From positions 1-20,337 of IMG/VR virus record IMGVR_UViG_3300013372_000015: a stretch of 20,337 nt of DNA. The stretch is one strand, 5' to 3'. Position 1 is the stretch's first letter; each line of letters starts with the position of its first letter. The notes under the pieces were generated by a model that did not search any database, was not told the origin of the DNA, and saw only the letters and a list, made by a program, of their open reading frames with translations. The position numbers and the translations under genes were made by a program. This document shows, piece after piece, positions 1 to 20,337 of this stretch. The DNA comes from a virus.

Positions 1-511
1 GCATGTCATGGTTGCCCCATGTCCAATGTAATTTAGCATTTGCGGCAACAGCTTCAATTTCACCTAAACGGTCTGAACAGGCTTCTAGTTCTTGTTTTAC
101 GGTTGGGTTTGATTTCCAGCCTTGCGGATCAAATCGACTTATTCCAGCGCCGTCAAAAACGTCTCCGTTCATTATGATCATGCGTGGGGATAATTCTGGT
201 ATCAATTTGACAAAAGCTCTATGTGCTGCGGATATTTGTCCAGGGTGATAATGGCAATCACTTGCCACCATAATTAAGCCTTCGTCCATTTCTACCCGAA
301 CGCGAACACCATTGTTAGGAATTGTTATATTGCAATCTAAAGACTTTTTATCAGTAGCAAGTAAGGCTAATCCAAATTTATTTTCGATTTCTCTGCGTTT
401 TGTATATACAGTTCTAACCTGAATTTTCAAAACTTCTGCTACTCTTGACGCTGATTGATATTTGTTCCAGATTGCTATAAATTCTTCGTCGGTACAAGAT
501 TTGGCAGTCAT
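1..511 (-). CDS. HTH-metallophosphoesterase protein, 3' end missing
   Basis: This leftward gene starts at the ATG complementary to 509-511 and is still open at the window edge, giving 170 visible codons. An AAAGG ribosome site lies about 6 bases upstream of the start. Residues 5-45 look like a helix-turn-helix (SASRVAEVLKIQVRTVYTKR). A calcineurin-like phosphoesterase domain follows, with the metal-binding motifs in the expected order: SDCH at 84-87 (D85, H87), NGDVFD at 115-120 (D117, D120) and GNHD at 166-169. The rest of the domain, with its further metal-binding histidines, should lie beyond the window. Enzymes of this superfamily hydrolyse phosphomono- or phosphodiesters with two metal ions. 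The substrate here, whether nucleic acid or small molecule, cannot be told. The gene points away from all others in the window, so it belongs to a different transcription unit from the late genes. Confidence 0.88.
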   Translation of the reverse strand, partial: MTAKSCTDEEFIAIWNKYQSASRVAEVLKIQVRTVYTKRREIENKFGLALLATDKKSLDCNITIPNNGVRVRVEMDEGLIMVASDCHYHPGQISAAHRAFVKLIPELSPRMIIMNGDVFDGAGISRFDPQGWKSNPTVKQELEACSDRLGEIEAVAANAKLHWTWGNHDM

Positions 512-10572: not shown

Positions 10573-12558
10573 ATGACAACTACAAATGACACAAACGAAG
10601 TCGCAGAAACGTCAACAATTAATATTGTGCCGGTTCAGGGCATTTTTAATGAGGACTTCGAACTAATTACGTTGATTGGCCCTGCTGGTACTCCGTTTTC
10701 TGCTTCTTCTGGCGGTTCGTTTGACAACGTAGCTATTACCAATTCGACCTATAACGGTGGAACAATTGGTTTAACTACGCCTGTAACTAATGCAACGATT
10801 ACTAATCTGACGCTGACTACAGGCACAATTAGCACAGCTCCAACAGCAAACAACGATTTAGTAAACAAGGCGTATGTTGACGCTACGGCTCAAGGTTTAC
10901 AGTTATTGCAACCTGCTGCGGTGGCCACAACAGCTAATTTGGTAGCGCTTTCAGGGTTGTTGACGATTGACGGCGTGACAGTTACAGCAGGTCAGCGGGT
11001 TTTGGTTAAAGACCAAACGTCAGCGCAATTTAATGGCGTTTACGTTGCTGCTGCCGGTGCTTGGAGTCGTTCTACAGATACCGATACTTACGCAGAACTA
11101 CAAAATATTTATCTTTTTGTAAGTGGCGGCTCGGTCAATGCAGGAACAGCCTGGGGAACCACAAATCATGGCACAGGCACTATTGATGTAACGCCAATTA
11201 ATTGGGTACAGATTGCGAATACTGCGATTTATACGGCTGGCACAGGTTTAACGTTATCAGCTAACCAATTCAGCATTACAAATACAGGCGTAACAGCTAA
11301 TACCTATGGCAGCGCATCGACTGTTCCAGTTATTGCAGTTAATGCTCAAGGTCAAATTACTGCGGCTAGTTCGCAAACAATTGCTTTAACTTCTGCGCAA
11401 ATTAGCGGTATTGGCACAATGGCGTTGCAAAATGCCAATAACGTAACCATTACCGGTGGAACGATCAACGGCACAACTATAGGCGGCACAACAGCTGCTG
11501 CCGTTACAGGCACAACCGTTACGGCAACAACACAATTTAGCGGCCCTGCTACTGGTTTAACTGGCACAGCAGCCGGTTTATCTATTGGCGGTACTGCGGC
11601 AACCGCAACAAGTGCAACGACTGCGACAAATCTTGCAGGTGGTGCTACAGGTTCGGTTCCTTACCAATCAGGTGCGGGAGCAACAACGTTTTTAGCTCTT
11701 GGCACAACAAATTACGCAATGGTTGCTGGTGCGTCTGCTCCTACTTGGACAAACACGTTAACAGGCATGACGCTGACAACTGCTAGTCTTGGAAGTCAAT
11801 TAAGCACTAATCAATATTTGATTGTTGGCGGCACTAACGACGGCAACCAATTGGATTTGTCATTAGCTAGTGGCGCAAATCTTAATTCTTTGCGTGATGG
11901 TCTTGTTAATATTAAAACTGGCACGACAGGCGCGGTAAATAGAACTTGGAGTTTTGCAGATTCAACTGGAACGTTTACGTCGCCAGGCCCGATAACCGGA
12001 ACTGTGGTTACAGGAAGCACAAGGCTTGCTAGTCCGTTTTTAGATGCAACCACTTCTGCGGGTGGTGGGTTAAGAACGGCCAGCGGTAGTAATTGTTTGC
12101 AATGGGGCGGTGGTGGTGCAGTTAATTTGACGCTTGATGGTGCGTTCAATATGAACCCTGCCAACGCATCAATTTCAATTGCGCCGACAGGTACTGGCAC
12201 TTTAACCATTAATCCTGCGACCGCTGGAACAATGAACAACATGGCGATTGGCGGCTCTACTGCCGCAGCCGGTTCATTTACTACGTTGTCAACTACTTCA
12301 ACGGTTTCGGCTAATGGTTCGGTTGGAACGGCAGGTCAGGTTTTAACGTCTGCCGGTGTTGGTTCACCTGCTATTTGGGCAGCTGCGACTGCTTACGCAA
12401 CGGTGACTGATGACACAACTACTAACGGCACACGTTACATAATGTTTGCAAATCAAACGACAGGCAATTTAACGACAACGTTTGTTTCATCAACAAAATT
12501 GAAATTTAACCCTAGCACCGGAGCGTTGACCGCTTCACAACTTATTATTGCTCCTTAA
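10573..12558 (+). CDS. Large tail-fibre-like protein
   Basis: A 661-residue Thr/Gly/Ala-rich protein with a TGAGG ribosome site (10563-10567) 5 bases before the ATG. The N-terminal 45 residues (VPVQGIFNEDFELITLIGPAGTPF at 20-43) look like a virion-attachment segment. VNKAYVDA (97-104) is a standard fibre collar motif. Residues 131-214 form a recognisable phage-tail domain: TIDGVTVTAGQRVLVKD, then NGVYVAAAGAWSRSTDTD and GTAWGTTNHG. A long low-complexity beta-rich shaft follows, with repeated TITGGTING-, GGTAATATSATTATNLAGGA- and GTAGQVLTSAG-like units. It would form a trimeric fibre or appendage contacting the host. Frame-shifted open frames on the other strand come from base composition. The C-terminus (FNPSTGALTASQLIIAP) lacks an obvious receptor-binding head, which may be supplied by the next gene. 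Confidence 0.8.
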   Translation: MTTTNDTNEVAETSTINIVPVQGIFNEDFELITLIGPAGTPFSASSGGSFDNVAITNSTYNGGTIGLTTPVTNATITNLTLTTGTISTAPTANNDLVNKAYVDATAQGLQLLQPAAVATTANLVALSGLLTIDGVTVTAGQRVLVKDQTSAQFNGVYVAAAGAWSRSTDTDTYAELQNIYLFVSGGSVNAGTAWGTTNHGTGTIDVTPINWVQIANTAIYTAGTGLTLSANQFSITNTGVTANTYGSASTVPVIAVNAQGQITAASSQTIALTSAQISGIGTMALQNANNVTITGGTINGTTIGGTTAAAVTGTTVTATTQFSGPATGLTGTAAGLSIGGTAATATSATTATNLAGGATGSVPYQSGAGATTFLALGTTNYAMVAGASAPTWTNTLTGMTLTTASLGSQLSTNQYLIVGGTNDGNQLDLSLASGANLNSLRDGLVNIKTGTTGAVNRTWSFADSTGTFTSPGPITGTVVTGSTRLASPFLDATTSAGGGLRTASGSNCLQWGGGGAVNLTLDGAFNMNPANASISIAPTGTGTLTINPATAGTMNNMAIGGSTAAAGSFTTLSTTSTVSANGSVGTAGQVLTSAGVGSPAIWAAATAYATVTDDTTTNGTRYIMFANQTTGNLTTTFVSSTKLKFNPSTGALTASQLIIAP

Positions 12559-12568
12559 GGAATAAATT

Positions 12569-13324
12569 ATGGGCCAGTTAGTCTTTCAAGCGGCTTTAGG
12601 CGGTCAAGTTAATCTTGTTGGCCCGAATACCGCATCTACATTTAATCTTAACGTTCCTGCGGTTGCCGGTACTGTAGTTACTACAGGTGATACAGCAACG
12701 GTCACAAGCACTATGATTTCAGGGCCGCTAACAACTTCTGTTGGCGGTACTGGTCTTGCTAGTTATACAGCCGGTGATATTTCTTATTACGCATCTGGTA
12801 CGGCTTTAACTAAGCTTGCAATTGGATCGGCTAATTTTGTATTAACGTCATCTGGTTCTGCTCCGCAATGGACTGCAAGCACAGGATCAGGCAACGTTGT
12901 ATTGGCTACTTCGCCAACGCTTGTAACTCCGGTTTTGGGAACGCCAACTTCGGGAACGTTGTCAGGTTGTACGGTTGACGGAACAAATGGCGTTGGTTTT
13001 AGGAACATACCTATTAACAGCCAATCAGCGGCTTATACAACCGTTTTAACAGACTCCGGCAAAGTTATATTCCACCCATCAACGGATGCAAACGCACGAA
13101 CATTTACGATTGATTCCAACGCAAACGTTGCTTATCCGCTTGGAACAGCTATCACGTTTATTAACATGACTAGCCAAGTGGTAACGATTGCAATTACAAG
13201 TGACACAATGTATTTAGCTGGAACTGGAACAACTGGTAATCGTTCGTTGGCACAATATGGCATGGCCACAGCGGTAAAAATGACCTCTACAACTTGGATC
13301 ATTTCGGGATCGGGATTGACCTAA
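12569..13324 (+). CDS. Second tail-fibre-like protein with C-terminal head
   Basis: A 251-residue protein with TAAGGA (12556-12561) overlapping the previous stop, 7 bases before the ATG. The N-terminal half has fibre-type repeats, including GGTGLASYTAGDISYYASG (58-76) and VLATSPTLVTPVLGTPTSG (110-128), common in phage fibres. The C-terminal 110 residues (from FRNIPINSQSAAYTTVL) are of more normal composition and end MTSTTWIISGSGLT. This part is a beta-sandwich-like domain of the kind in which phage fibre tips sense a surface. It shares the 'GxxxFVLTSSGSAPQWT' type unit with the larger fibre, where it reads TNYAMVAGASAPTWTN, so the two are related. They may be a split fibre or two partners. 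The receptor-binding role is inferred. Confidence 0.75.
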   Translation: MGQLVFQAALGGQVNLVGPNTASTFNLNVPAVAGTVVTTGDTATVTSTMISGPLTTSVGGTGLASYTAGDISYYASGTALTKLAIGSANFVLTSSGSAPQWTASTGSGNVVLATSPTLVTPVLGTPTSGTLSGCTVDGTNGVGFRNIPINSQSAAYTTVLTDSGKVIFHPSTDANARTFTIDSNANVAYPLGTAITFINMTSQVVTIAITSDTMYLAGTGTTGNRSLAQYGMATAVKMTSTTWIISGSGLT

Positions 13325-14160
13325 TGAGCGGAATACTTCAAGCCTTACTAATACAAGGTGGCCAAGCATTAACAGTTAGATATTTAGTTGCTGCTGGTGG
13401 TGGTTCTGGTGGTGATACTGATGCTGCTGGCGGTGGCGCGGGCGGTCTTTTAACAGCTTCAAATTTGAATTTAGCTGTTAGCACTAATTACACAGTTACT
13501 GTCGGAGCTGGCGGCGCTACTCAAAGCACTAACTGGACTAGAGGAAATAACGGCTCTAATTCAGTATTTAGCACATTTACATCAACTGGAGGCGGTGGCG
13601 GTGGTGTTGGTGCGCTTCCCGCTTCTCCTTCAGACGGATTTGGCGCAAATGGCGGTTCGGGCGGTGGTGCTGGTTCAACTTGGGTTACTGGAAGAACTGG
13701 AGCAGGAACGTCAGGACAAGGCAATAATGGCGGTAACGGTGCTTTAGGTAATGGTGGCGGCGGCGGTGGTGGTGCTGGAGCTGTTGGTAGCGATGGACCA
13801 AATGGAAATGGTGGTATTGGATTAACTTCCGATATTACTGGTAGCAGTATTTATTACTCTGATGGCGGCGGCGGCGGTCATGGCAACGCAACCACAGGCG
13901 GTTCTGGTCGAGGCGGGTCTGGCGGTGCGCCAAACGGAAATGGAACTAATGCCCAAGCAAATAGCGGCTCTGGCGGTGGTGGGGGCGGCGGGAATAACGG
14001 AACAGGCGGTGCGGGTGGTAGCGGCATAGTCATTCTTAGGTATCCATCTACATACACAATTGCGAACCCTGGTGGCGGATTAACTTTATCAACTTCAACC
14101 GTTGGAAGCGATAAAGTTACATCAATAACTGCCGGAACTGGCAATGTATCTTGGAGTTAA
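13324..14160 (+). CDS. Glycine-rich fibre/adhesin-like protein
   Basis: From ATG 13324 (one-base overlap with the previous stop, TAATG) the protein has 278 residues; the open frame extends upstream inside the previous gene, but no better start with a ribosome site exists. After VRYLVAAGGGSGG the chain is dominated by runs of glycine up to seven or so, with Ala, Ser and Asn. They alternate with short ordinary segments, such as NYTVTVGAGG and GIVILRYPSTY. This is the glycine-rich domain found in many phage surface proteins. In the adhesin of Salmonella phage S16 similar glycine stretches pack as polyglycine-II helices and the loops bind the receptor. A tip-adhesin role here is inferred from composition and from its place after two fibre genes. 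Confidence 0.72.
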   Translation: MSGILQALLIQGGQALTVRYLVAAGGGSGGDTDAAGGGAGGLLTASNLNLAVSTNYTVTVGAGGATQSTNWTRGNNGSNSVFSTFTSTGGGGGGVGALPASPSDGFGANGGSGGGAGSTWVTGRTGAGTSGQGNNGGNGALGNGGGGGGGAGAVGSDGPNGNGGIGLTSDITGSSIYYSDGGGGGHGNATTGGSGRGGSGGAPNGNGTNAQANSGSGGGGGGGNNGTGGAGGSGIVILRYPSTYTIANPGGGLTLSTSTVGSDKVTSITAGTGNVSWS

Positions 14161-14989: not shown

Positions 14990-15970
14990 ATGACTAAGCC
15001 AATTGAAATCATTAGCGGTGCTTTGAAAGATATTGGTGCGCTTGAGGCGGGTGAAACTCCTACGCCTGAAGCTTCGCAAGATGCTTTAGTTATGCTCAAC
15101 GACCTGATAGATCAATGGTCGAATGAAAATCAAATGGTGTTTAACGTTACAGAGATTATCTTTACGTTAATTTCTGGACAGGTTCAATATACGCTTGGCC
15201 CTAATCCAAGCACACAGAACTTTGTAGGTTCGTCGTTTACAGGTTCCATTTCCGGCCAAGTTTTAACGGTAACAGGCATTTTGTCCGGCGCTATTGCTAC
15301 AGGCCAAACGCTGTCAGGAACCGGCATAGCACCTGGCACTAAGATTGTTTCTAACATTACCGGTGCTGGCGGCAACGTCAACGAACAAGGTACTTACAGA
15401 TTAAACATTGCGCAATCTGTAGCTTCTACAACGATTACAGCTTATTACCAAAAGCCACTATATATTGACAGCGCATTTGTTCGCATCAATACAACGTCTA
15501 ACGGCCAGCCTATTTATGGCGGTGGTCTTGACTATCCGGTGGCGGTTTTGGCTTTGCAACAGTATGAAATGATTGGCTTGAAAACTCTGAACGGCCCTTG
15601 GCCAAAAGCGCTTTACTTTAACCCGAATGAGGAATCAGGCAACTTGTTTGTGTGGCCAAATCCAGCACAGGGCGAACTACACATTTTTGCCAATACAGTA
15701 TTCCAGCGCTTTGCTACCGATCAAGATGAGTTTGTGTTGCCGCAGGGTTACAACATTGCGTTGCGTTGGTGCTTGGCTGAACGGTTGATGCCTATGTATG
15801 GCAAGAATAACCCGCAGCAAATTGCAATGATTCAGCAATATGCGGCACAAGCCAAATCAACAATCAAACGAACCAACATGTCGCCTTTGCAGACGTCTAG
15901 TTATCCTGACGTATTGCTAACGTCAAGAGCAAAAGACGCTGGTTTCATACTTACCGGCGGTTTCATATAA
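14990..15970 (+). CDS. gp4-like tail accessory factor with inserted module
   Basis: A 326-residue protein whose N-terminus (TKPIEIISGALKDIGALEAGE, 2-22; ASQDALVMLNDLIDQWSNEN, 28-47) matches the packaged-DNA stabilisation/tail accessory factor family of P22 gp4. P22 gp4 has 166 residues, so this one is about twice as long. Part of the extra is a beta-rich module at 83-152 (FTGSISGQVLTVTG through AQSVASTTITAYY). A second common part follows: GGLDYPVAVLALQQYEMIGLKTLNGPWP, YFNPNEESGNLFVWPNPA, then LPQGYNIALRWCLAERLMP. The latter is frequent in longer homologues. In P22, 12 copies extend the portal and seal the packaged head. GGAATAATT gives the ribosome site. Position before the gp10-like gene matches the P22 order. 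Confidence 0.88.
   Translation: MTKPIEIISGALKDIGALEAGETPTPEASQDALVMLNDLIDQWSNENQMVFNVTEIIFTLISGQVQYTLGPNPSTQNFVGSSFTGSISGQVLTVTGILSGAIATGQTLSGTGIAPGTKIVSNITGAGGNVNEQGTYRLNIAQSVASTTITAYYQKPLYIDSAFVRINTTSNGQPIYGGGLDYPVAVLALQQYEMIGLKTLNGPWPKALYFNPNEESGNLFVWPNPAQGELHIFANTVFQRFATDQDEFVLPQGYNIALRWCLAERLMPMYGKNNPQQIAMIQQYAAQAKSTIKRTNMSPLQTSSYPDVLLTSRAKDAGFILTGGFI
15236..15445 (+). repeat. Beta-rich module copy 1 (in gp4-like gene)
   Basis: Protein residues 83-152, beginning FTGSISGQVLTVTG, with a central TGQTLSGTGI and ending NIAQSVASTTIT. Related copies lie in the gp10-like gene at 16380-16571 and 16986-17168. The similarity is clear at the protein level and partial at the DNA level. Confidence 0.8.
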
Positions 15971-15980
15971 AGGGTAGGTC

Positions 15981-18356
15981 ATGCCAGATTTTGGTTTTGT
16001 CGGCCCTAGTTATGAAGCACCTTCGATCTACCAAGATGCGCAGGAATGTATCAACTTTCGCCCTGAGATTGACGCACTAAAACAGCCAGGTCAGCGCGGT
16101 GTTGTGTCTTTGTATCCAACGCCAGGGCTTACTCTTAAAGCTCTTTTAACGGCTCAAGCTGAAGTTCGTGGGCTGCGTACAGTATCAGGCGGCGATTACA
16201 TGATTGCCGTTTCTGGCGCTTCTGTGTACGTCATAACGTCTAATCTGACAGCTTCTATTATTGGTCAGCTAAACACTTCAACCGGTATAGTTGGAATCAC
16301 AGACAATGGACAATCTGTTTATATCGTTGACGGTGCTTATCGGTACACATGGCGCATTAGCACTCCAGCTACGTCTATTTTCACAGGTTCTGTGTCTGGA
16401 ACTACCTTAACAGTCACAAACGTCAGTAGCGGCACTATAGGGGTTGGACAGTCGCTGTTTGGTTTGGGCGTTGCAAACGAAACGGTTATTACTGCGCTGG
16501 GTACAGGCTCCGGCGGCGTTGGTACTTATACGATCAACATTTCGCAAACGCTATCAGCTAGGGCAATGAATTCAGCGGCAGTTGCTGCAACATTTACCGG
16601 TTCTATTAGCAGCGGCGTTAATTCTGTAACCATAACAAACCAAGGTAGTAACTATTTAAATCCTGTAGTTAGCTTCGGTACGCTTTGGACTGCAACAACT
16701 GTTGTGGTAAGTCCTGCGCAGATTTATTTTGGCGCGAATCTTTACACCGTTACAGGTTCTGGAACTACTGGTTTAACGGCTCCAACCCATACAAGCGGAT
16801 CGGCTGCTAACGGCACAGCAACTTTAACTTATGCCGGTGTGGTGGCTACCGCCACAGTCACGCAAGAAGGCGGCAAGATTACTGAAGTAACTATGGCCAA
16901 CAGGGGTTCAGGTTATACGTCTGCGCCGACTGTGACGTTTGCTGATAGCTTGGGTGGCTCTGGCTCAAGTGCAACAGGTACGGCTAATCTTGTGGCCAAC
17001 TCTTTACAAGTAACGGCTATTACAGGCACTTTGTTTCTAGGCCAAACGATTCAAGGTGCTGGTGTTACTGCTGACACTATTATTACTGAGTTTGGAACTG
17101 GTACAGGTGGCGTTGGAACGTACAACTTAAACTTTACGCAATCAGTTGCAAGCCAAACAATGTATGCGCTGAACTTTACGGTTCTGCCATCTACAGACGG
17201 CGCATTTAGCGGCGGCAATTCTGTTGGTACATACGACAATTACTTTGTTTATAACAACCCAAACACGCAACAATATGGTGCGTCTGACCTGCTTTCACCT
17301 ATTTCAAATAGCTTAAGCTTTGGCTCTAAAGACGGATCGCCTGATGATTTGGTGGCGTTAATTGTTGACCATCGAGAAATATATTTGTTGGGCGAGGCTT
17401 CTAGCGAAGTATGGGTTGACGTTGGAACTGTGCCGTTTCCGTTTCAAAGGATACCAGGCACAAGCACACAACATGGTTGCGCAGCTAAGTTCTCGCTTTC
17501 AAGACTAGGTAATTCGTTTGCTTATGTAAGTCGCAATTCGCGTGGCCAAGGTCAGATAATGCAAACGGAAGGTTATAAACCAGTCCGCATTTCTACTCAC
17601 GCAGTAGAACAGACTTTGGTCAATCAATATATTGATGACGCAATAGGTTGGACTTATCAATTAGAAGGTCATGAATGTTACGTTATAACGTTTCCAACAT
17701 TAGAATTAACTTGGGTTTATGACGCAACAACGCAAATGTGGCACAAATGGCTATATTTGAACGATTTGGGTGAATATGAGCGGCATCGAGGCCAATGCAG
17801 CGCAGTATTTCAAGGCATGGTTTTGTGCGGCGATTATGAGAATGGCTCAATATATGAGCTAGACCCTGACAACTATACTGACAACGGCCAAAACATTAGA
17901 AGGCTGCGTCGTGCGCCGCACTTGGTTGCAGACTTTCAGCGTCAATACTTTGACGAGCTGCAGATACAATTCCAGCCTGGCGTTGGTTTTACTGGTCTTT
18001 CAACAAGCGGCACGACCATTCCAGGCGCTGTTTACTTAGGCGATACTTATTCTATTACGCCGACTCAAACTTTAACTATTGCTTTTGATGGTTTTGCTAT
18101 TTTAGGAATAGCGGATATTGCTGACGATATAACCACTAACAACCCGCAAGCTATGCTGCGTTGGTCAAATGACGGTGGTTCTACTTGGTCAAAAGAATAT
18201 TGGGTAAGTATTGGTTCAATTGGTCGCTACAAGAATCGTGCTATTTGGCGGCGTTTAGGTATGGCTAGAGATAGAATCTTTGAAGTTTCTATTACCGATC
18301 CAGTTAAGGCGGTGATTGTGTCGGCTAACCTTAAAGCGTCAAGCGGGGATAATTAA
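15981..18356 (+). CDS. gp10-like packaged-DNA stabilisation protein, enlarged
   Basis: A 791-residue protein; P22 gp10 has 472. The N-terminal 125 residues (SYEAPSIYQDAQECINFRPE; SLYPTPGL; SGGDYMIAVSG; NGQSVYIVDGAYRYTW) and the C-terminal part from about residue 400 (VGTYDNYFVYNNPNTQQYG; IVDHREIYLLGEASSEVWVDVG; QHGCAAKFSLSRLGNSFAYVSRNSRG; FPTLELTWVYDATTQMWHKW) follow the gp10/Phage_stabilise family. Roughly residues 130-400 are extra: module copy A1 (134-197), a central beta region with two GSxY repeats (VTITNQGSNYLNPVVSF, 216-232; VTMANRGSGYTSAPTVTF, 303-320) and an LYTVTGSGTTGLTAPTHTSG unit, then module copy A2 (336-396). Gp10 in P22 bridges gp4, tailspike and needle, and closes the capsid. 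AAAGGG is the ribosome site. The insertion probably faces outwards, which is inference. Confidence 0.88.
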   Translation: MPDFGFVGPSYEAPSIYQDAQECINFRPEIDALKQPGQRGVVSLYPTPGLTLKALLTAQAEVRGLRTVSGGDYMIAVSGASVYVITSNLTASIIGQLNTSTGIVGITDNGQSVYIVDGAYRYTWRISTPATSIFTGSVSGTTLTVTNVSSGTIGVGQSLFGLGVANETVITALGTGSGGVGTYTINISQTLSARAMNSAAVAATFTGSISSGVNSVTITNQGSNYLNPVVSFGTLWTATTVVVSPAQIYFGANLYTVTGSGTTGLTAPTHTSGSAANGTATLTYAGVVATATVTQEGGKITEVTMANRGSGYTSAPTVTFADSLGGSGSSATGTANLVANSLQVTAITGTLFLGQTIQGAGVTADTIITEFGTGTGGVGTYNLNFTQSVASQTMYALNFTVLPSTDGAFSGGNSVGTYDNYFVYNNPNTQQYGASDLLSPISNSLSFGSKDGSPDDLVALIVDHREIYLLGEASSEVWVDVGTVPFPFQRIPGTSTQHGCAAKFSLSRLGNSFAYVSRNSRGQGQIMQTEGYKPVRISTHAVEQTLVNQYIDDAIGWTYQLEGHECYVITFPTLELTWVYDATTQMWHKWLYLNDLGEYERHRGQCSAVFQGMVLCGDYENGSIYELDPDNYTDNGQNIRRLRRAPHLVADFQRQYFDELQIQFQPGVGFTGLSTSGTTIPGAVYLGDTYSITPTQTLTIAFDGFAILGIADIADDITTNNPQAMLRWSNDGGSTWSKEYWVSIGSIGRYKNRAIWRRLGMARDRIFEVSITDPVKAVIVSANLKASSGDN
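16380..16571 (+). repeat. Beta-rich module copy 2 (gp10-like gene)
   Basis: Residues 134-197 of the gp10-like protein, starting FTGSVSGTTLTVTN, with GVGQSLFGLGV and the ending GTYTINISQTLSARAM. It aligns with copy 1 over its whole length. Confidence 0.8.
16986..17168 (+). repeat. Beta-rich module copy 3 (gp10-like gene)
   Basis: Residues 336-396 of the gp10-like protein, from NLVANSLQVTAITG through LGQTIQGAGVTADTI to GTYNLNFTQSVASQTMYA. The start lacks the FTGS strand of copies 1 and 2, but the GTGTGGVGTY centre matches copy 2 (GTGSGGVGTY) closely. Confidence 0.78.
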
Positions 18357-18606: not shown

Positions 18607-20337
18607 ATGGCTTCTTCTGCTGACATACAAGCGCAAATTGATTCTTTAAATGACAAGATAAGTAATCTTGGTAGTGGGCTTGGCGCTGCTGGTGTGCGCA
18701 CAACTTATCAAAACCAAATTAGGAATTTGCAAACGCAACTAAATGCGGCTAGACAAGCTGAAGAACGCCAACAGCAAGAACAGCAGCCACAACAACAAGA
18801 GCAGCCACAGCAGCAGCAAGAACAACCACAACAGCAAACAACGCCTATTTCGCAAGTTGCTCCGCAAGCTGCTGGCAATCAATTGCCTACGCTTAAGCAG
18901 TCTATTATTGACGAACAATTTAAGAATAAGCGCACCAACGAATTAACTTCTTTTAATTCTGACATTAGAGATAAAATTGTTGACGCAGGTTGGAATGAAA
19001 AATCTGATGCGGTCAGAATATTAAACGGTTCAGGCGTTTATGGAATTGTGGCTGGCCCTGCGGGTATGGGCAGCATAGGTTATAAAAAATTAAACGGTAG
19101 TGCTGCTGGCGAACAAGATTTTATTGACGCTGCCAAAGCTGCTGGGATTGACCCAAATCAATACATGAATAGTGAAACTATTTATGGCAAAACTAGTAAA
19201 ACTTTAGATCAGACCAAGCTTTACAACGCCTTGCAAGAAAAAGGTAAAGATTTATATTCGGTAACTAATGCTTTGTCTGGTTCTGCGCGTGGAGATGCTG
19301 CGCCACATGCAACGGTTTTATATAAAGCAGACGGTTCCGGCAATCTTGTTGTGCAAAACGACCCAACAAACGGTCAACCAAACGTTAAGTATTTTGAAGC
19401 TGTTAGATACGCTAACCCTGAAAGTTTCATGGATACGTATGGGCCATTCCTTGCATTAGCTCCTGCTTTTGGTGGCATTTTGCAATCGGCTGGTGTTATT
19501 CCTTCTTTTGGTTCTGCGGCAAGTTCTGTCGGTGGCGGCTTTGCTGGTGGTGGCTATGGAAGCATTGGCCCTGCCGGATTTACAGCAAGCACAGCGGCTC
19601 CTACGCTTTCCAGTATTGCTGCTGGATTGCCTACGCCGCCAATTAGTTCAGGTGGTGGTTTTGTTGGCGGTGGGTATGGAAGTGTTGGAACTGGTGGATT
19701 TACAGCGGCTGACGCTATTGCAGCATTGCCAGCAAGCCAAGTGCGAGCATTAACTTCTGGCATGACAGCGGCAGAAATAGCAGCGTTGGGCGTTCCTAGC
19801 GATGTTATTGGTGCTGGTTCTGGTGCGATAGGTTCATTCTTAGGCAGCAAAGCTGGTGGTGCTGCTGCAAATGCTTTATTGGAAAAAGCTTTTGGTAATT
19901 CTGGTTTATTCAACGCTTTAGGTGCTGGCGGTCAGGCTGTAGGTTCTTATTTAAGCGGTCAGGCACAAGCTGACGCAGCAAAAGAAGCTGCAAGAAACCA
20001 AATGACCATGTTTAACACGATTAACCAACAGTTTGCGCCACAGCGCGGTGCTGGTTATCAGTCGTTAAATCAGATTAGATCAATGTTGCCAGGTCAATAT
20101 ACAAGGTATGACGAAGCTGGCAAACCGATGGGAATGGAAACAGGTACGGATTATTTAACCCGCCAGTTTTCACCACAAGATTTACAGGCAGGTCTTGCGC
20201 CTAATTACCAGTTTATGCTTGGCCAAGGTCAGCAAGCACAACAACGTGCGGCTAATGTTGGCGGTGGTTTAATTGGTGGTAATGCTTTGCGTGGCCTTCA
20301 AGATTACACACAGAATTATGCTCAGAACGCTTATCAA
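18607..20337 (+). CDS. Probable DNA-ejection/transfer protein, 3' end missing
   Basis: The frame is open for 577 codons from ATG 18607 to the window edge, with GGGGA (18597-18601) 5 bases before the start. Residues 1-50 form a helix (ADIQAQIDSLNDKIS, then RNLQTQLNAARQ). A Q/P/E-only linker follows at 54-77. Residues 95-270 are an unrecognised globular part, and about 290-370 contain two Gly-rich repeats. The last 130 visible residues hold a pattern I know from phage DNA-transfer/ejection proteins: GSYLSGQAQADAAKEAARNQ, MTMFNTINQQFAPQRGAGYQSLNQI and SPQDLQAGLAPNYQFMLGQG. Its place after gp4- and gp10-like genes also matches the P22 ejection-protein genes. Such proteins are packed in the virion and form a conduit across the host envelope. 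Identity is likely but not certain. Confidence 0.75.
   Translation, partial: MASSADIQAQIDSLNDKISNLGSGLGAAGVRTTYQNQIRNLQTQLNAARQAEERQQQEQQPQQQEQPQQQQEQPQQQTTPISQVAPQAAGNQLPTLKQSIIDEQFKNKRTNELTSFNSDIRDKIVDAGWNEKSDAVRILNGSGVYGIVAGPAGMGSIGYKKLNGSAAGEQDFIDAAKAAGIDPNQYMNSETIYGKTSKTLDQTKLYNALQEKGKDLYSVTNALSGSARGDAAPHATVLYKADGSGNLVVQNDPTNGQPNVKYFEAVRYANPESFMDTYGPFLALAPAFGGILQSAGVIPSFGSAASSVGGGFAGGGYGSIGPAGFTASTAAPTLSSIAAGLPTPPISSGGGFVGGGYGSVGTGGFTAADAIAALPASQVRALTSGMTAAEIAALGVPSDVIGAGSGAIGSFLGSKAGGAAANALLEKAFGNSGLFNALGAGGQAVGSYLSGQAQADAAKEAARNQMTMFNTINQQFAPQRGAGYQSLNQIRSMLPGQYTRYDEAGKPMGMETGTDYLTRQFSPQDLQAGLAPNYQFMLGQGQQAQQRAANVGGGLIGGNALRGLQDYTQNYAQNAYQ
19531..19590 (+). repeat. Gly-rich repeat, copy 1 of 2
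   Basis: Codes for GGGFAGGGYGSIGPAGFTAS (residues 309-328 of the ejection protein). The second copy begins exactly 120 bases further on. Fifteen of the twenty positions match, with many silent base changes, so this is an old duplication kept at protein level. Confidence 0.8.
19651..19710 (+). repeat. Gly-rich repeat, copy 2 of 2
   Basis: Codes for GGGFVGGGYGSVGTGGFTAA (residues 349-368), the partner of the copy at 19531-19590. The 20 residues between the copies (TAAPTLSSIA and so on) are not repeated. Confidence 0.8.

Follow-up and report, generated by a model that had tools for sequence, protein, structure and literature searches.

A small beta-barrel module inserted in the adaptor and the hub of P22-like environmental phage tails

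Introduction

How the same short, beta-rich protein module comes to lie inside two different proteins of one phage tail, and what it could do there, is the question raised by the IMG/VR virus record IMGVR_UViG_3300013372_000015, of which positions 1-20,337 (20,337 bases, called here the window) were analysed. The window carries a P22-like head and tail block, in which terminase, portal, scaffold and major head protein are followed by a gp4-like head-tail adaptor and a gp10-like tail hub or head-closure protein. One copy of the module is found in the adaptor and two in the hub, and it would be a self-contained small beta-barrel that is inserted promiscuously into proteins of the virion.

The classic promiscuous domain of virions is the immunoglobulin-like (Ig-like) domain, with the families Big_1, Big_2, I-set and FN3 (Fraser et al. 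2006, as cited in the available part of PMC9022992), and domain shuffling is established for phage proteins (PMC10684548, available part). No paper on the module was found in the literature; such searches cannot be aimed at a motif by sequence, so one may exist.

Three copies of one module in two tail proteins

The gp4-like adaptor (326 amino acids, aa) is encoded at 14990-15970 and the gp10-like hub (791 aa) at 15981-18356, both on the plus strand, as are all the parts of them located below. The adaptor, composed of a helix bundle and a middle beta domain of the "fibre-dock" type that holds the module, matches phrog_12985 (E 5e-39) and PF24175 SU10_adaptor (31.7 bits, cut-off 27). Phmmer with the whole protein found nothing among the PDB sequences at E<=1; a profile of 57 gp4 proteins matched the gp4 chains of P22 (E 3.7e-4 to 7.5e-4) and, together with the match of the predicted model, identifies the bundle as homologous to that of P22 gp4. 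The hub belongs with phrog_578 (E 1.5e-95), and its profile matches Pam1 (7eeq, E 2.7e-42), Pan3 (9vyg, E 1.2e-40) and P22 gp10 (E 8.8e-21), the homology to the last holding for the sequence outside the insert. NCBIfam gave no family for either protein at E<=0.1. An earlier note on this DNA had described P22 gp4 and gp10 as half to three-fifths as long and free of the inserts, which agrees with their lengths of 166 aa and 472 aa (51% and 60% of the window proteins).

The module is about 70 residues long. Copy 1 occupies residues 81-152 of the adaptor (15230-15445), between the dock strands 66-69 and 156-166, and is absent from the aligned relatives of 234-255 aa. Copy 2, delimited by sequence alignment, covers residues 132-198 of the hub (16374-16574). 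Copy 3 extends overall over 16587-17174: its first strand, in the split reading discussed below, is placed by the insert alignment at residues 203-211 (16587-16613), and its remainder at residues 340-398 (16998-17174) by alignment, model and profile score. Between them, at 16614-16997, a second element of about 128 aa splits the copy, with two GSGYT-type repeats around a "NLYTVT..GTTG.TAPTHTSG" unit. The segments proposed in the earlier note (83-152 of the adaptor, 134-197 and 336-396 of the hub) are recovered with slightly wider limits, at 81-152, 132-198 and 335-398.

That it is the same module in the two proteins, as had been claimed, is borne out by Smith-Waterman scores of 143, 108 and 138 between the copies, compared with shuffled sequences (1000 each) of mean 35-42 and maximum 63-77; the z values of 14.6, 10.9 and 14.2 place them 11-15 standard deviations above chance. 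A profile search of the window's record at E<=1 returned these three copies and no others. Similar units had also been said to be scattered in other phage proteins, which is true of other viruses but of no further protein of the window at that threshold. The DNA of the copies can be aligned in short stretches only (the best local matches being 62 bp at 71% for the hub pair and, for the adaptor copy with the third, 35 bp at 77%), so that the likeness is one of protein. In composition, the module is made up of T, S and G to 45-49%, with 4.5-5.4% of W, F, Y and H and 3.2-3.4% of D, E, K and R, against 16.3% charged residues in the core of the two proteins. Tryptophan is present in 18 of 298 module copies, and neither a tryptophan nor a charged residue is conserved.

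Predicted fold

The gp4-like protein and the hub insert were modelled with AlphaFold2 from alignments of 57 gp4 proteins and 42 hub inserts. Near-identical rows had been removed ahead of alignments, trees and identity comparisons. Three adaptors with two modules each (L100, L137 and L163) were left out of 60; for the inserts, L054 was skipped, the larger or irregular L041, L047, L066 and L078 of 44 were left out, and L009 and L010 were added; L041, L090 and L186 of the 21 listed were left out of the gp10 alignment. The adaptor model has a mean predicted local distance difference test (pLDDT) value of 80.6, the blocks of ten residues within the module lying at 84-94 and one block at 65. In the insert model, blocks of ten residues reach 88-96 in copy 2; values are about 85-93 in copy 3 and mostly below 50 in the element of about 128 aa.

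Compared with known structures, the adaptor model resembles P22 gp4 with a Z score of 15.2 and a root-mean-square deviation (rmsd) of 2.7 over 114 aligned residues. Including its middle beta domain, it also resembles the adaptors of T7, N4, DEV and SU10 (Z 9.4-11.0, 159-212 residues, rmsd 3.9-4.5; for SU10, Z 9.4, rmsd 4.1 and 195 aligned; for the SU10 and T7 adaptors together, 159-195 residues). In the model, strands 52-59, 66-69, 156-166, 180-187, 207-210, 218-222 and 229-236 lie between helices and form a beta domain of the fibre-dock type known from gp11 of T7 and gp11 of SU10. P22 gp4 lacks such a domain; the available text of PMC6702177 describes a fibre dock in the T7 adaptor and none in that of P22. 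The window's protein differs from T7 and SU10 in that the dock-type domain itself bears an extra inserted barrel.

Structure prediction of the copies, set beforehand as a test, gave related folds rather than unrelated structures, and in the models the three copies have the same small beta-barrel. An Ig-like fold was weighed first (Big_6 at 0.12) and was set aside after the fold comparisons, although its absence from those lists excludes nothing. The majority of the listed matches are barrels of the EF-Tu type: in both models the module aligns with the domain-2-type barrel that elongation and initiation factors contain, at Z 5.7-7.4 and an rmsd of mostly 2.2-2.9 over 67-78 residues. Copy 3 gives such matches with the element of about 128 aa looped out (model residues 82..279 or 80..279, with 66-76 residues in most such rows), and likewise matches a tail-tube protein from the Acinetobacter phage Mystique (66 residues aligned, Z 5.9, rmsd 2.5). 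Another similarity is with the decoration protein of the Arthrobacter phage Bridgette (PDB 8eci chain 1), for which Foldseek gave probabilities of 0.89 and 0.99 with 21-24% identity over 71-77 columns; the VIA Z scores are 6.3 and 6.8, but rmsd values are 4.4 and 7.0 and Foldseek E values 0.19 and 0.68. Unlike the module, this decoration protein stands alone; the gp4 profile reaches it at E 0.64 and the module profile does not at E<=10. On these moderate scores the predicted barrel is likely to resemble EF-Tu domain 2 and the phage decoration protein.

Insertion sites and the layered hub insert

The adaptor copy lies between a strand ending in YTLG and a strand starting with PLYIDSAF, and the relatives of 234-255 aa are continuous across this site. 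In the hub, an insert of about 270 residues is found between RYTWRIS and VLPSTDG, a site that in MW202520, MW202674 and phage P26218 is bridged by a few residues without any insert. Simple tandems of two modules, 149-160 aa long in total and with starts about 72 aa apart, make up 51 of the 68 hub inserts compared. The extra element of about 128 residues is carried by the window and five close relatives (L007-L010 and L025), and in the insert alignment it falls inside the first hairpin of the second hub module; other relatives have different additions at the same place.

According to this alignment, the third copy probably starts near hub residue 203 and is split by the element. A contiguous copy at residues 329-400, with the element upstream, was considered and rejected: against a profile of 51 second copies lacking the element, the split reading scores 84.8 bits and the contiguous one 75.3, a preference of 9.5 bits. 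The AlphaFold2 model of the insert gives no independent support here, because its input alignment already assumed the split. Besides, the element matches phrog_6005 and phrog_5342, and its central unit matches residues 494-568 of a receptor-binding domain from the tailspike of a short-tailed cyanophage (7eea, E 1.9e-4, with a composition bias of 12.7 bits).

A second insert in the hub, at residues 666-719 approximately (17976-18137), is highly variable and lies near the C-terminus; several aligned relatives are without it.

Distribution among relatives and order of gain

Relatives were gathered as 80 near loci found by gp4 and at least 171 more found by three gp10 queries (the best 80 being kept per query), to which one contig of a metagenome-assembled genome (MAG) and 12 named phages were added; with the window, 265 sequences were scanned. 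Complete gp4 and gp10 frames are present in 222 of them, and the 43 lacking one complete frame were excluded. Written as (gp4, gp10) copies, the 222 loci are (0,0) in 86 cases, (1,0) in 69, (1,2) in 56, (2,0) in 8 and (1,4) in 3; collapsed to 211 distinct protein pairs, the numbers are 85, 63, 52, 8 and 3, respectively. The hub thus carries copies in 59 of the 222 loci, every time alongside an adaptor copy and never alone.

The counts of zero include ten of the 11 complete gp4 proteins of the Xanthomonas phage PBR31 type, which carry an insert of their own, about 70 residues long, where the other adaptors have the module. Hhalign relates this insert to the module with a probability of 52% over 28 columns (10 of the 11 inserts used), against at most 4.7% for 30 column-shuffled controls, and the module profile gives no match. 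Judged from this comparison of profiles, the PBR31-type insert is probably a divergent form of the module.

On the tree of the gp10 core (73 rows), the rows with a gp4 insert, PBR31 type included, stay together (49 rows, support 99/95), and the gp10-insert clade is nested among them (18 rows, 100/100). One large group has the module inserted in an adaptor loop, and a sub-clade within it also has a tandem pair in a single hub loop. The tree is drawn with a midpoint root, and long branches lead to several outgroup rows; if the root lies among the insert-free rows, the adaptor insertion would be the earlier event and the hub pair the later one. Further insertions and tandem copies would have come after both gains. 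The main gp4-insert clade (44 rows, 100/100) keeps one or two adaptor copies in 44 of 44 rows, and the gp10-insert clade two or four hub copies in 18 of 18. Four rows with a double adaptor copy require four changes on this tree, which makes the adaptor copy number labile. Tandem double modules are seen in the gp4-like proteins of L100, L105, L106, L136-L138, L142, L163 and L170.

Duplication within the genome

Within-genome duplication had been named in the earlier note as something that a phylogeny of the copies could test. In its recent form it is not supported. In 23 non-redundant genomes out of 66, the adaptor copy and the first hub copy are as alike in the same genome (0.462) as across genomes (0.464), and the same is true of the adaptor copy and the second hub copy (0.461 and 0.462) and of the two hub copies (0.480 and 0.485), with p values of 0.65-0.76 across the three comparisons. 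Copies at the same position in different genomes are 0.61-0.80 alike. With copies no closer inside a genome than between genomes, neither recent copying nor gene conversion is supported, whether between gp4 and gp10 or within gp10.

The phylogeny of module copies, proposed as the test, answers in part: on a tree of 72 columns, whose bootstrap had not settled, copies from one position mostly fall together and some branches are starred, but resolution is poor. Five approximately unbiased (AU) tests on a reduced set rejected no grouping (p 0.23-0.68), and two of the trees in which a grouping was held were better than the free one. The verdict on recent duplication thus rests on the identity comparison, the module tree being poorly resolved.

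As an account of the hub copies, duplication from gp4 to gp10 is very unlikely, recent copying being disfavoured; an older event may have taken place. The two genes adjoin and hub copies occur only alongside an adaptor copy; one clade uniting the three positions was not rejected by the AU test (p 0.23), and the likelihood improved over the free search when the two hub copies were held together. Such an origin has to face, however, the equal identities within and across genomes, the grouping by position, and the fact that the adaptor copy is closer to 31 modules of other virion proteins (0.535) than to the hub copies, a value biased upward by the consensus-like query with which part of this set was fetched, and part of the set belongs to the same virus group. 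Within gp10, an old tandem duplication is quite possible, to judge from that gain in likelihood.

The module in other virion proteins

The catalogues searched hold no name for the module. No Pfam family comes near its cut-off; no Ig-like model (Big, I-set or FN3) reaches its curated cut-off, the only score being that of Big_6 (13.1 and 12.3 bits against 27.6), and no carbohydrate-binding family of Pfam is found at low E (the best is CBM_35, E 0.024, in 1 of 17 members). In PHROGs, a module-like stretch lies inside two long profiles, phrog_21413 and phrog_38233, which are matched by 16 of 17 modules; they are named unknown function and tail fibre, and do not delimit the module as a domain. Among PDB sequences, the module profile has 6 matches at E<=10 (best E 0.051, a bactofilin) and the hub-insert profile two at E 0.6-0.8, all taken as chance. 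Tblastn of the module against a phage collection recovered 2 and 1 of 50,697 records, probably on account of low-complexity filtering of a query rich in T, S and G, so that this yield is no evidence of rarity.

Scanned with a single module taken from a fibre-like gene, IMG/VR yielded at least 395 confirmed stretches, and 21 of the 80 loci fetched (some of them near-identical) have no gp4 or gp10 homologue. Of these, L293 carries the module inside a tail sheath and the adjoining tail terminator, L333 inside a tail-tube protein, L336 inside a minor tail protein, L335 inside a tail fibre and L319 inside a virion structural protein. All 32 module matches in these 21 loci lie more than 20 residues from both ends of the frame (18 of the 32 in complete frames), and in 6 of the loci, three of them near-identical, two module-bearing genes are adjacent or close. 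Within the window's own virus group, nine more frames near gp4 and gp10 carry it, most of them fibre-like by place. Among the predicted viral proteins of BFVD, the hub-insert model matches one annotated as HK97 major capsid protein (46% identity and rmsd 0.5 over 67 columns, E 5.6e-5), one labelled tip attachment protein J (E 8e-3) and, weakly, a tail sheath (E 1.3). It also matches collagen-repeat proteins that bear the label of the giant virus Indivirus ILV1 (rmsd 11-12 over long alignments, E 2.8e-9 and 4.1e-7); the assignment is no more than a database label, perhaps a metagenome artefact, and would otherwise be a surprising spread. The proposal that the module moves between genes is thus strengthened by its presence inside several unrelated virion proteins of other environmental phages.

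In this respect it is comparable to phage Ig-like domains, also small beta domains of several tail and virion protein classes that vary between relatives. It differs from them in its predicted EF-Tu domain 2-like barrel, in the lack of a Big family at cut-off, and in its internal position in the 21 loci checked, whereas the Ig-like domains of tail tubes are mostly C-terminal in the text available, YSD1 also having an internal one.

A barrel that is merely tolerated in exposed loops, of low complexity and easily folded, could spread by recombination with no selected function. The extreme composition would fit this, as would the presence of the module in several unrelated proteins and the variation of copy number between near relatives. 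It is nevertheless quite unlikely, as a neutral insert would be expected to decay or vanish, and the module is kept throughout the main gp4-insert and the gp10-insert clades, with adaptor copies 80% alike across the 23 non-redundant genomes.

Proposed role on the tail

The adaptor module lies within the beta domain with which T7 and SU10 dock their fibres and which is absent from P22 gp4; the hub insert would follow about the seventh propeller strand, where T7 has its nozzle-tip domain and SU10 its nozzle domains. Both sites would be on the outer face of the tail, and an exterior position of the barrels is likely. If the tail has 12 adaptor and 6 hub subunits, as is usual, it would display about 24 barrels. 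This cladding would add contacts between subunits or with fibres or needle, stiffening the hub and extending the tip, rather than take part in catalysis or specific sugar recognition. An exterior, contact-adding cladding is the best-supported role because of the low charge, the absence of a conserved tryptophan, the recurrence of the module in ring- and tube-forming proteins, and the precedent of the YSD1 tail tube, where an inserted domain clamps the neighbouring subunit (PMC8718954, available part). The dimeric cement proteins of Bridgette, which bridge capsomeres, were also counted for a role in making contacts. For that role the chances are even, and so they are for exterior position and contacts taken jointly.

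Several points weigh against this interpretation. The exposure of the barrels on the virion is something we infer, and the seven strands that precede the hub insert were counted by reading the sequence. Hhalign could not align the hub with SU10 gp17 or T7 gp12 (probabilities of 1.0 and 0.4, with 98.5 for the positive control P22 gp10), and mapping to SU10 and T7 was unsuccessful for the adaptor as well. Among PDB sequences, a search with the module profile recovers no decoration protein at E<=10, and Foldseek finds no PDB match for the hub-insert model at E<=0.001. The barrel matches are middling, and Z values under 8 may reflect a common arrangement; given these scores and the lack of a convincing PDB sequence match, the claim is limited to a shared barrel and the named folds are only likely.

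Sugar binding has, moreover, been proposed for some Ig-like domains of phage tails (PMC8718954 and PMC9022992, available parts), and weak attachment of the many exterior barrels to polysaccharide on the cell surface, or to mucus, could likewise hold the phage near its host before the fibres bind. The module is also present in fibre-family proteins, and the resemblance of the element in copy 3 to part of a tailspike receptor-binding domain would point the same way. That match, however, belongs to the element and not to the module and carries the composition bias already mentioned; the module itself, poor in charged and aromatic residues, conserves neither a tryptophan nor a charge and recalls no carbohydrate-binding family at low E, and adhesion is unlikely.

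A different possibility, tentative and on the unlikely side, is that the hub pair is the counterpart of the T7 nozzle tip and the SU10 nozzle, a distal rim round the needle that would rearrange at ejection, with the adaptor copy shaping the fibre dock. In the T7 hub propeller, a second opening in a loop of blade 3 leads to the beta-barrel nozzle tip facing the host membrane (PMC6702177, available part). For nozzle-tip domains of the T7 and SU10 kind, the place of insertion is a loop of blade 3 or the region between blades 2 and 3. The hub proteins are homologous, and the insertion falls at a similar place in the propeller by strand counting; as in T7 gp12 and SU10 gp17, beta domains are inserted in a hub or nozzle beta-propeller, in tandem in both SU10 and the gp10-like insert, and P22 has nothing equivalent in either protein. 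But the position was read from sequence, the predicted fold is unlike the Ig-like nozzle domains of SU10, neither T7 nor SU10 shows detectable sequence similarity, and a lateral decoration of the hub, as the earlier note proposed, fits equally.

There is also a wider reading, which we regard as doubtful: one uncatalogued barrel would serve as a general-purpose, internally inserted part of virion surfaces, found in the adaptors and hubs of phages as well as in their sheaths, tubes, fibres and HK97 capsid proteins, and perhaps in collagen-like proteins of a giant virus. The P22-like clade would use it in two ring proteins, re-creating in gp10 a T7- or SU10-like nozzle tip from unrelated material.

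Other features of the window and its relatives

Upstream of the adaptor, 13294-14160 encodes a very Gly-rich protein of 288 aa (phrog_2295) and 10573-12558 a protein of 661 aa with matches to head-decoration, virion-structural and fibre families. Downstream of the hub, a frame at 18607-20337 is open to the end of the record, Gln-rich and then Gly/Ala-rich; by its place, it may encode an ejection protein truncated where the contig stops. Towards the start of the window, the open reading frame at 2010-2612 looks like an endonuclease of the HNH/NUMOD type.

In two named relatives, an annotated endonuclease gene lies between gp4 and gp10 (L086, 3011-3589; L093, 3088-3576). The gap between the two genes exceeds 300 bases in 34 of the 222 loci and is often of 500-660, including the gap before gp10 in L007, L009, L025 and L026. 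It looks as if the junction were visited by homing endonucleases. A search of bacterial and archaeal genomes with the C-terminal part of gp4 returned one locus, a 4.5-kb contig of a Methylococcaceae MAG (L084) whose gp4-like C-terminal part is 69% identical to that of the window, a possible hint at a methanotroph host.

Significance

What is new with respect to the known systems would be a barrel of another kind that the catalogues searched do not list, the fact that two core ring proteins carry it internally, with an order of events legible on a tree, and the build of the gp10 insert in layers. A second promiscuous domain besides the Ig-like one, an uncatalogued barrel inserted internally in core ring proteins, where an extra domain should be hard to tolerate, would widen the known routes of tail diversification. 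Defining the module would also improve the annotation of tail proteins from environmental phages, as the libraries searched hold it only in profiles named "unknown" or "tail fibre". Finally, the pairs of gp4 and gp10 proteins with and without the insert are clean before-and-after pairs, in which the effect of the module is directly testable.

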